Assembly: GCF_006491595.2 (NCBI RefSeq)
Contig: NZ_VEVQ02000003.1
Span: forward strand, 310,001 to 374,000
Direction: 5' to 3'
DNA: 64,000 bases
Source of the DNA: Flavobacterium jejuense
GTDB taxonomy: Bacteria > Bacteroidota > Bacteroidia > Flavobacteriales > Flavobacteriaceae
Position numbers and translations under genes: made by a program. The notes under the pieces are model-generated. The model saw nothing but the letters and a program-made list of their open reading frames with translations, was not told the origin of the DNA and did not search any database. Below, piece after piece: positions 2,086 to 61,414 of the stretch (position 1 is the first letter of the stretch; each line of letters starts with the position of its first letter).

Positions 2086-2157
2086 ACTTTTTTTAAAATT
2101 ATTTACTTTTTTTGATTTCTACTGAAATTGTGTTTGATAAACAAAAAGCACTATTCT

Positions 2158-2247
2158 AGCCCTGATAGTAGTGGCATCCTTTTCTTTTTTTCTTTAAAAA
2201 AAGAAAAGATAGAACGGATAGCAGGACTACTTTTCTTTCGAAGGGCT
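2158..2247 (+). ncRNA. Flavo-1-like structured element, copy A
   Basis: Intergenic element with outer arms AGCCCT (2158-2163) and AGGGCT (2242-2247), an internal CCTG/CAGG helix (2161-2164 with 2222-2225), conserved GATAGTAGTGGCATCC and GATAGAACGGATAGC segments, and a variable T-rich/A-rich hairpin between them. It matches my memory of the Flavo-1 RNA motif of Flavobacteria, whose function is unknown. It lies downstream of the VIT-domain gene, on the opposite strand to both neighbours. Confidence 0.6.
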
Positions 2248-8760: not shown

Positions 8761-8787
8761 TGTTTTAAAAAGTAACTTTTCTATTTT

Positions 8788-8908
8788 AGCCCCGATAGAA
8801 ACGATATCCTTTTTTACTATTGCATTTTAACTCCATTCTATGTAACAATAGTAAAAAAGATATAGTGAATAGCGGGAAAGAATATATCCTAAATGAAGAT
8901 GTGGTGCT
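8788..8908 (+). ncRNA. Flavo-1-like structured element, copy B
   Basis: It starts AGCCCCGATAGAAACGATATCC and carries GATATAGTGAATAGCGGG on the 3' side. The internal helix is CCCG (8791-8794) with CGGG (8873-8876), a change from CCTG/CAGG in copy A that keeps pairing. The variable hairpin is long, TTTTTTACTATTG pairing with CAATAGTAAAAAA. The outer closing arm (GGTGCT near 8903-8908) is imperfect. The rest of the gap up to parA (8909-8988) shows no other feature. Confidence 0.62.
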
Positions 8909-25257: not shown

Positions 25258-26502
25258 ATGAATTCATTTACTACTTCTCAAAAATTAAAACATTTATTTT
25301 CTTTACCTGTAATTGTTGCTGCATTAGGCTATTTTGTTGATATTTATGATTTACTCCTTTTTGGAATTGTACGCATTCCTAGTTTAGAGTCTTTAGGATT
25401 GAATATTGACAAATCTGGATCGATGATTTTAAATGCTCAAATGTTCGGATTATTGATTGGTGGAATCATTTGGGGCGTTTTTGGGGATAAAAAAGGAAGA
25501 CTTTCTGTTCTCTTTGGTTCTATTTTAGTGTATTCGTTGGCTAATATTGCTTGTGGCTTCTTACCCTACTTTCCACAAGAAAATATTGACATTACCTATG
25601 CTCTTATCCGTTTTATAGCAGGAATAGGTTTAGCTGGTGAATTAGGAGCAGGAATTACATTGGTTTCAGAATCCTTACCTAAAGAATTAAGAGCTATTGG
25701 CACTTCTATTGTAGCTGGTTTTGGTTTGTTAGGTGCTGTTGTTGCACAACTAACTGTACAATTAGCAGAAAATTGGACAATTGCCTATTTCGTTGGTGGC
25801 GGTTTAGGCTTACTACTACTGTTTCTACGTCTAGGAGTTGTAGAATCTGGCATGTTTAAAGAGATCAAAAAATCAGAGCACATTCAAAAAGGGAATTTCT
25901 TCTATTTGTTTACCAATTTCAATCGGTTTATAAAATATTTGAAATGTATTGCTATTGGTTTACCAACATGGTTTTGTGTTGGAATTCTTGCTGTAATGGG
26001 AAATCAATTTGCTAGTGCTTTTGGCATTGAAAGCATAAATCCTGGAAAAGCCATCATGTGGACTTATATTGGAATTTCGGTTGGTGATTTTGCCAGTGGT
26101 TTTATTTCACATTGGTTACATTCTCGTAAGAAAGCTATATTCTATATGATGCTATTCACAATAATTGGAGTTTGTTTGATGCTTTTTGGTGGTACGAAAA
26201 CAGAGAACATGTATTATTTCTATTGTGCATGGCTAGGTTTAGGGACTGGTTACTGGGCCATGTTTGTAACCGTTGGAGCAGAACAATTTGGTACTAACAT
26301 TAGAAGTACTGCTGCTACAACAATTCCTAACATGGTTAGAGGATTACTTCCTCTAATGTTGTTTAGTTTTGATTCTTTAAAGATTAATAATGGTGTAATA
26401 ACTGCTGCTTCAATTGTTGGATTTGTGGTTTTTGCTTTAGGCATTTACTCTGCTTTAACTATTCCAGAAACACACAATACGGATTTAGATTTTACAGAAT
26501 AA
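25258..26502 (+). CDS. MFS transporter
   Basis: The 414-residue protein has about 12 hydrophobic helices and the MFS motif A after TM2 (GGIIWGVFGDKKGRLSVLFG) with the related motif in the second half (GDFASGFISHWLHSRKKAIFYM). The sequence LIRFIAGIGLAGELGAGITLVSESLPKELRAIG resembles sugar/metabolite:H+ symporters of the SHS family. Substrate cannot be told from the sequence. It is 38 nt after the sigma factor gene and is followed by a Flavo-1-like element. Confidence 0.85.
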   Translation: MNSFTTSQKLKHLFSLPVIVAALGYFVDIYDLLLFGIVRIPSLESLGLNIDKSGSMILNAQMFGLLIGGIIWGVFGDKKGRLSVLFGSILVYSLANIACGFLPYFPQENIDITYALIRFIAGIGLAGELGAGITLVSESLPKELRAIGTSIVAGFGLLGAVVAQLTVQLAENWTIAYFVGGGLGLLLLFLRLGVVESGMFKEIKKSEHIQKGNFFYLFTNFNRFIKYLKCIAIGLPTWFCVGILAVMGNQFASAFGIESINPGKAIMWTYIGISVGDFASGFISHWLHSRKKAIFYMMLFTIIGVCLMLFGGTKTENMYYFYCAWLGLGTGYWAMFVTVGAEQFGTNIRSTAATTIPNMVRGLLPLMLFSFDSLKINNGVITAASIVGFVVFALGIYSALTIPETHNTDLDFTE

Positions 26503-26522
26503 CAAACTTTAGAGGTTCATCT

Positions 26523-26605
26523 GCGTTAGTGATGGAAACGGCATCCTTTTGTGTAATAAAATGAAACAAAAGATACAGTGAACAGCACGACCCTTGTGGG
26601 AACGC
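26523..26605 (+). ncRNA. Flavo-1-like structured element, copy C
   Basis: Outer arms are GCGTT (26523-26527) and AACGC (26601-26605). The internal helix here is GTG (26529-26531) with CAC (26586-26588), replacing CTG/CAG of copies A and D, with pairing kept. The conserved strands are GATGGAAACGGCATCC and GATACAGTGAACAGC around a short TTTTGT/ACAAAA hairpin. A short GACCCTTGTGGG hairpin precedes the 3' closing arm. It lies between the MFS gene and lipA. Confidence 0.65.
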
Positions 26606-26680
26606 CCAAAAACAAAATTCAACGTTTTATTAAAGTTTGCTTTTTTTCTAACTTCTGACTGCTACCTTATAACTTCTTAT

Positions 26681-26688
26681 TATCTTTG
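26681..26688 (+). promoter_or_regulatory. -7 box before lipA
   Basis: TATCTTTG, 19 nt before the lipA ATG, matches TAnnTTTG. No TTG at the usual distance. Confidence 0.5.
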
Positions 26689-26706
26689 TAGTTCAAAATA
26701 AATTCT

Positions 26707-27582
26707 ATGAATACAGTTTTAGAAAATGTTTTTCCACCAAGAGAACCGAAGCCAAAATGGTTGCGTGTGAAGCTACCTACTGGTAAAAAATATACTGAAT
26801 TAAGAAGTTTAGTTGACAAATATAAATTGAATACGATTTGTACCTCTGGAAGTTGTCCGAATATGGGTGAATGTTGGGGAGAAGGCACAGCTACATTCAT
26901 GATTTTAGGAAATATTTGTACCCGTTCTTGTGGTTTTTGCGGTGTAAAAACAGGAAGACCAGAAACAGTGGACTGGGACGAACCCGAAAAAGTAGCACGT
27001 TCAATAAAATTAATGCAAATTAAACATGCAGTTATTACTAGTGTAGACAGAGATGATATAAAAGATATGGGATCCATCATTTGGGCTGAAACAGTGAAAG
27101 CCATCAGAAGAATGAACCCGAATACTACACTAGAAACCCTTATTCCAGATTTTCAAGGCAATACAAGAAATTTAGATCGTATTATTGAAGTAGCTCCTGA
27201 AGTGGTTTCTCACAATATGGAAACCGTAAAACGTTTAACAAGAGAAGTGCGTATACAAGCTAAATATGAAAAAAGTTTAGAAGTATTACGTTACTTAAAA
27301 ACGCAAGGAATCAAAAGAACGAAATCGGGAATTATGCTTGGTTTAGGAGAAACGGAAGAAGAAGTGATTCAAACCTTGCATGATTTGAGAGATGCCAATG
27401 TTGACATTGTGACTATTGGTCAATATTTACAACCTTCAAAAAAACACTTACCAGTAAAAGAGTATATTAAACCTGAGCAATTTGAGAAATACGAAAAAAT
27501 AGGAAAAGAATTAGGTTTCAGACATGTAGAAAGTGGTGCGCTTGTGCGTTCTTCTTATCATGCAGAGAAACATATTTTATAA
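26707..27582 (+). CDS. lipA: Lipoyl synthase
   Basis: The 291-residue radical-SAM enzyme has both iron-sulfur motifs: the auxiliary cluster C-x4-C-x5-C ([16 protein letters not shown]) and the radical-SAM C-x3-C-x2-C ([10 protein letters not shown]). Further signatures are [38 protein letters not shown] and the C-terminal [13 protein letters not shown] with the R-S-S-Y ligand to the auxiliary cluster. It inserts two sulfurs into octanoyl groups on lipoyl domains. Length is typical for Bacteroidota. Confidence 0.97.
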
Positions 27583-61295: not shown

Positions 61296-61317
61296 AAATG
61301 AAAATGAAAACCTAACT

Positions 61318-61380
61318 AACCCTGATGGTAGTGACAGCTTCCTAAACTAGTTTAGGAACTAAAACGGACAGCAGGAATAT
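61318..61380 (+). ncRNA. Flavo-1-like structured element, copy D
   Basis: It starts AACCCTGATGGTAGTGACAG and has the 3' part AAAACGGACAGCAGGAAT. The CCTG/CAGG helix (61321-61324 with 61372-61375) is kept. The variable stem is the perfect palindrome TTCCTAAACTAGTTTAGGAA (61339-61358). The junction AG-C-TT replaces AT-CC and pairs with AACT in place of GAT, so the bulged C and helix are preserved with changed bases. No outer closing arm is seen. Confidence 0.6.
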
Positions 61381-61414
61381 GGCAAACAAGAATGCCTTCA
61401 CTTTCGTTTCTTAA

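Follow-up and report, generated by a model that had tools for sequence, protein, structure and literature searches.

Copy C, a repeat lying between an MFS-transporter-like gene (mfs) and lipA, is a genuine Flavo-1 element (Rfam RF01705) of a distinct form, here termed type 2, which folds as a three-way junction composed of a closing stem (P1), a long hairpin (P2) and a short hairpin (P3). It lies in a 64-kb stretch (the window) of a Flavobacterium genome (G000; 4.75 Mb in 74 contigs). Type-2 Flavo-1 is a repeat of ~85–95 bases, or more in copies with extended arms, and the form spans the Bacteroidota, being found in other families and in another class. Flavo-1 as a whole is read here, with roughly even confidence, as a structured repeat, scattered and mobile in origin, whose settled copies are constrained, and neither as a dedicated sRNA gene nor as an element with a role specific to mfs or lipA.

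An Rfam search gives four Flavo-1 matches in the window (starting at 2154, 8784, 26515 and 61314), and the score of copy C lies above the gathering cut-off (Table 1). The parts of copy C described in the initial annotation were all located where it had placed them when the sequence was re-read, including the extra GACCC..GGG hairpin near the 3′ end, formed by CCC at 26591–26593 and GGG at 26598–26600. Copy C has the P2 hairpin and internal loops in common with the Flavo-1 RNA motif as presented in the text of Weinberg et al. (2010, PMC2864571), whereas the RF01705 model, of 76 positions, ends at P2, its printed structure having neither P1 nor P3. The Flavo-1 consensus arms (UAGCC ccGAU ... AGCggGA) are not matched by copy C, which reads GCGTTAGTGAT ... 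AGCACGACC; its P2 is GTG/CAC versus CCG/CGG in the consensus, with an outer P2 pair of G-C versus C-G. As the curated criterion for Flavo-1 is the score, copy C is filed as a divergent form. It has every feature by which type 2 is defined: a P1 of five pairs in five, a P2 whose outer pair is G-C and which is followed by GACC, and P3.

Table 1. Flavo-1 matches, parts of copy C and adjacent genes in the window, by position.
Feature	Position	Strand	Evidence or remark
Type-1 Flavo-1 copy, the sole one of 63 with AGCCCT/AGGGCT	2154..2232	+	78.4 bits
Type-1 Flavo-1 copy; same site occupied in two relatives	8784..8883	+	71.5 bits
MFS-transporter-like gene (mfs)	25258..26502	+	NCBIfam MFS family matches, all below cut-offs
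RF01705 (Flavo-1) match, the portion of copy C covered by the public model	26515..26596	+	52.8 bits, cut-off 42
Complete type-2 element as modelled, three-way junction	26520..26609	+	R1 105.4 bits, R2 98.7 bits; not independent, copy C being among the building sequences of both models
P1, 5′ strand GCGTT	26523..26527	+	3/5 pairs double-changed in 30 copies
P2, 5′ strand GTG; GCG or GGG in sister copies	26529..26531	+	30-copy alignment
Symmetric GNA/GNA internal loop, 5′ side	26535..26537	+	Opposite side 26580–26582
Apical hairpin, A+T-rich; hairpin conserved rather than sequence	26547..26571	+	Apical identity 0.52 vs arms 0.86 at orthologous sites of other copies
P2, 3′ strand CAC	26586..26588	+	30-copy alignment; sequence position
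P3, CCC TTGT GGG	26591..26600	+	Mostly fixed CC/GG in genus; longer hairpins in other families
P1, 3′ strand AACGC	26601..26605	+	Alignment of 30 copies; sequence position
lipA, lipoyl synthase	26707..27582	+	NCBIfam TIGR00510, above cut-off
Type-1 Flavo-1 copy; same site occupied in three relatives	61314..61382	+	51.2 bits

The type-2 fold is supported by covariation within the genus. The minimum-energy fold of copy C contains P1, the apical hairpin and P3, but its stability does not exceed that of shuffled versions (z -0.84; z -0.89), and this single-sequence fold is weak evidence. The four type-2 copies of the genome (copy C, L052, L058 and L060) have standard pairs in 92 of 92 pair cells, and in their alignment (n=4) six pairs are changed on both sides, while slid partners pair in only 37–59%. 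Across 30 genus copies, 99.0% of 685 cells are paired, compared with 85.5% for shuffled and 37–55% for slid partners, and 88 cells are changed on both sides versus a shuffled mean of 23.4; these rows are the best match of each genome, found through a fold model from the genome's four copies, which biases them towards pairing, and three that were longer or misplaced (L144, L153 and L155) are left out. From the same set RNAalifold recovers P1 and P2 unaided. The middle P2 pair is G-C in 21 copies, U-A in six and C-G in three, and P1 variants include GCGTT/AACGC, GTGTT/AACAC, GCATT/AATGC, GCGTG/CACGC and GCATA/TATGC. P3 is paired in 90% of its cells in the genus, without covariation because it is mostly fixed as CC/GG; in other families it is a longer hairpin of unrelated sequence, with nine pairs in L294. 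P2 of the type-2 fold carries symmetric GNA/GNA loops and an A.G mismatch, GNA/GNA being the most frequent 3x3 loop among 178 copies drawn from the genome and three relatives (111 of the relatives' 114 Flavo-1 matches were retrieved for this set).

The genome has at least 67 Flavo-1 matches, possibly a low count as 150 of 1380 candidates were scored, of which four are type 2 and 63 are others. Copy C and its three sisters all exceed the RF01705 gathering score, and a type-2 model built from these four copies gives them 102–105 bits, with the next copy at 60.2. Among the 178 copies, 16 have the G-C outer P2 pair of type 2, and all 16 continue with G[A/C]CC after P2. None of the other 161 has a G-C outer pair, the remaining copy, L234, being a degenerate intermediate, and no element joins the type-1 lead (TAGCC/TAACC) to the outer pair of type 2. 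In five type-1 copies P2 is followed by the letters GACC, but none of the five has a complete closing stem. The proposal of the initial annotation that one genome holds at least two subfamilies is thereby borne out, the 178 copies falling into discrete forms, with that single intermediate, and not into a continuum. Its view of AGCCCT/AGGGCT as the closing stem of the other copies did not hold: these arms are present in one of 63, the copy at 2154, and as a family closing stem they were rejected as the coincidence of one copy. The further idea that the subfamilies differ in partner or function drew nothing from gene context, the neighbouring genes of the genome's four type-2 copies, judged from their sequences, showing no common theme.

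It could be argued that copy C is an ordinary Flavo-1 copy with fortuitously pairing flanks, in keeping with its non-significant single-sequence fold and with the 10 of 156 other copies that form a 5/5 stem if any of 11 offsets is allowed. However, P1 is complete (5/5) in 15 of the 16 copies with a G-C outer pair, all at one of two offsets, and the same stem is present in other families; its covariation in 30 copies already refutes this explanation, to which we attach a negligible probability.

The flanks of type 1 separate it in turn into three or more classes, in which, under a strict rule, the site is common to the three relatives for one of 11 copies (class A), seven of eight (class B) and six of 12 (class C); a class-A copy is also present in a relative (L338). 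RNAalifold found no structure beyond P2 in 21 class-A type-1 copies. By eye, many type-1 copies carry a terminal GGAGC when read on the opposite strand; a GTAG/GGAG-type head beside a 20–40 bp palindrome is a mark of REP/RAYT repeats. Also by eye, a Flavo-1 copy at ~5001 of L065 has an apparent foreign palindrome within its 5′ arm.

Copy number is patchy across the genus, ranging from 0 in two of 36 relatives to 81 matches in one genome (G036). With model R1, matches arise in 92 of 101 genomes of the genus, many of these matches being type-1 copies. R2 matches below ~62 bits may likewise be type 1, as one type-1 copy of the genome reaches 62.4 bits, and R2 match counts alone therefore cannot number the type-2 genomes. 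By eye, 29 of the 30 best R1 loci (one per genome, L155 among them being read at the wrong place) show the type-2 layout, and P2 of L153 is AGG/CCT. Two pairs of type-2 copies, L137/L150 and L139/L147, appear by eye to have similar flanks across species and to be inherited in place. All 10 loci read in further genera of the order (L283, L290, L291, L294 and L296–L301) have a complete P1 (5/5). Outside the order, eight of nine stretches, from seven genomes of which two belong to another class, start with the type-2 pattern; L422 is without P3, no 3′ P1 strand could be seen in L417, and the P1 partner of L416 was identified by eye, the scripted pick being spurious. These comparisons suggest that, of the two forms, the three-way one is the more widespread, and it may also be older than type 1.

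At its own site, P1 of copy C starts 20 bases past the mfs stop codon on the same strand, and a promoter-like sequence (TATCTTTG) lies between copy C and lipA. Among 66 loci with a relative of the MFS gene, lipA adjoins in 29. No element was found in 23 of these 29, including the six closest by mfs identity (L384 and L349–L353), the longer intergenic stretches being read over their first 190 bases and beyond that by R2, which missed the copy in L364. The six occupied loci differ in the form and place of their element: L372 has a type-2 element abutting the MFS frame end, L377 an element matched by R2 that is type 1 or type 2, and L391, L410, L411 and, by eye, L364 have type-1-like elements between mfs and lipA. 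In L381, where lipA is not adjacent, an element on the opposite strand directly follows the MFS gene. The site thus appears to have gained elements of different forms on several occasions, or to have lost them on many, and such varied occupancy is not like that of a conserved regulator of mfs or lipA. Elsewhere, a type-1-like copy was seen by eye upstream of lipA in a locus of a relative where no mfs was found (L103, genome G073). Terminator-like sites (a G+C-rich hairpin with a T run) number zero in 26400–26760. A terminator hairpin around copy C was considered, an outer inverted repeat (CAAACTTTA/TAAAGTTTG) and a T run being present, and was taken as chance because the left arm is unseen in element-free relatives and the terminator search of that interval came up empty.

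At least 26 of the 67 copies occupy sites common to one to three relatives with flanks ~80% identical, which indicates slow turnover; a shared site is one where both flanks match, and the count is a lower bound, L016 being shared with G084 and yet failing the rule. The other three type-2 copies are at shared sites in all three relatives, but copy C is not. The relatives' own 59 sites are found in all three (22), in two (eight) or in one (29), many of the last matching on one side only, at rRNA operons or at the ends of contigs. Of the 483 pair cells of the 26 shared sites, 420 are unchanged, eight are broken, and the rest remain paired after a change on both sides (44) or on one side (11), with the caveats that the arm register, here and in the 178-copy counts, was partly set by pairing and so favours paired cells, that three of 69 comparisons (L058) are in the wrong register, and that the relatives are not independent. 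At orthologous sites identity is 86% in the arms, 52% in the apical loop and 73–77% in the nearby flanks. Together, these identities and pair counts indicate that the fold is retained while the sequence drifts, though gene conversion by another copy could also yield the double changes.

One type-1 copy, L001, has no element in the same interval of two relatives, nor in the visible part of a third, and three relatives (L342, L343 and L345) have there a different short repeat with TCAGTTCGAGTG cores, repeated within the stretch. At one orthologous site (L010 versus L176, L178 and L218), the apical arm has been swapped for unrelated palindromes of TCTCGACTGCGCTCGAG type and of GTCATTGCG..AATG type, with the base of the fold kept.

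The Rfam strand is probably the folding one, a conclusion well supported by the excess of G-U over A-C cells: 14 versus 3 in the 178 copies (13:3 over distinct arms, p 0.02) and 8 versus 0 in the 30 genus copies outside P3. Between tandem genes, as called by a plain ORF script, the folding strand is antisense rather than sense by 28:10 in the genome and 27:5 per site in the three relatives, two sets that share sites, and by 20:6 for matches to the type-2 model, some of which are orthologous. Within the genome, the ratio is 15:3 for settled copies versus 13:7 for other copies; in two further genomes the copies with the highest scores are evenly oriented relative to genes (8:8), and the genome's four type-2 copies are divided 2:2. 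An orientation bias that increases with copy age would account for the difference between the settled copies, the others and the 8:8 set. Promoter-like boxes directed into elements are at the level of chance (6 versus 6.0 on the folding strand; 8 versus 5.4), and those directed away number 12 versus 4.1 expected on each side. At the rRNA operons of relatives, Flavo-1 was seen ~750–850 bases upstream of 16S (L179 and L232), with a flank in common with L004 and L005 of the own genome, and ~180 bases downstream of 5S (L181).

These patterns bear on whether Flavo-1 instead acts as RNA in the untranslated parts of read-through transcripts, perhaps by affecting stability or termination. Such a role would suit the position of copy C relative to the mfs stop codon, the 26 stop-codon versus 13 start-codon adjacencies (≤50 bases) at 47 type-2-model loci, and compensatory change in place at shared sites. 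In the passages on Flavo-1 of an RNA-seq study of F. psychrophilum (PMC9723704), hits lie sense or antisense of newly defined transcribed regions, with many outside them, which suits a dispersed repeat, and several 5′ transcribed regions coincide with hits, from which no function was drawn; these coincidences suit a role as RNA and count against a mobile repeat. However, the strand that keeps its pairs is antisense to its tandem neighbours in both the genome and the relatives, and terminator-like sites are lacking around copy C, and a read-through role seems to us rather unlikely.

An independent sRNA gene family, as in the Rfam type 'Gene; sRNA', with types 1 and 2 having different targets, would agree with the conserved structure of the 30 copies and with the text of Weinberg et al., who class Flavo-1 as probably RNA and not cis-regulatory (PMC2864571). 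On the folding strand, promoter-like sites directed into elements are nevertheless no more frequent than chance, copy number ranges widely from genome to genome, and the F. psychrophilum RNA-seq passages give no functional clue and place many hits outside transcribed regions (PMC9723704), making this a poor prospect. A chromosome-structure site of the BIME kind, in which duplex or cruciform DNA between transcription units would be bound by gyrase or a nucleoid protein, fits the placement between transcription units, the promoter-like boxes directed away, the copies at rRNA operons and the fold retained at settled sites. It is nonetheless unlikely, since the G-U/A-C asymmetry and the orientation bias indicate one strand, a preference that binding to a duplex would not require, and several genus genomes are without a match.

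The reading of Flavo-1 as a dispersed mobile repeat would involve a trans-acting factor that recognises the element through the conserved base of its fold, and that either copies it, as single-stranded DNA or via RNA, or binds it. Copies would land between transcription units, those whose folding strand lies inside an mRNA would be lost more often, and selection would maintain the fold of copies that settle. Mobility is suggested by the sequence comparisons, and several results run against it. No gene for a mobilising or partner protein of Flavo-1 was found in the search made for one. No Y1-type transposase gene was found in 10 of 36 genus relatives, a few of them with incomplete genomes, and nine of these 10 carry Flavo-1. 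Among 30 Y1 loci, each from a different genome and read over ≤1.5 kb each side, two have one Flavo-1 copy and none has two; a RAYT/Y1 partner was accordingly rejected, both as necessary and as element-flanked. The only Y1 gene found in the own genome (L081, G000 C3:141410-141754), one of these two loci, has Flavo-1 copies ~1.0 kb and ~3.7 kb away, on either side. No clean target duplication, such as a miniature inverted-repeat transposable element would leave, was seen; element-free sites exist, but divergence of their intergenic flanks would obscure one. The replication-strand bias that single-stranded-DNA transposition might give is not consistent (39:42, 26:33 and 25:12), and such a preference was rejected, the last ratio (p 0.047) running the other way. 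The slow turnover and the absence of orientation bias in the two further genomes are likewise points against a mobile repeat.

A survey based on Rfam counts Flavo-1 with its most abundant sRNA families but gives it no function in the passages concerned (PMC9029176). The titles, abstracts and passages on Flavo-1/RF01705 covered here describe no subfamilies and no three-way junction. A public model limited to one hairpin conceals a second, phylum-wide form, and separating the forms alters how Flavo-1 hits count in genome annotation. The separated forms, together with pairs that are kept while the flanks diverge, make a concrete test of RNA gene versus mobile DNA repeat. We tentatively put forward, as a proposal more apt to fail than to stand, that Flavo-1 has been misfiled as sRNA and is a mobile repeat of the whole Bacteroidota that folds strand-specifically: the three-way form would be broad and probably the older, the type 1 of Flavobacterium would be derived, stripped and bursting, and the partner would be a novel nuclease, transposase or RNA-binding protein.

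Integron attC sites are imperfect palindromes recognised as one folded strand, a system to which Flavo-1 may be likened. REP elements with their RAYT transposases, as described in part of the literature, are like Flavo-1 in being dispersed extragenic palindromes with compensated changes and a patchy distribution between species (PMC2817692); they differ in size, REPs being given as 20–40 bp (PMC3733652), much shorter than the type-2 Flavo-1 element.
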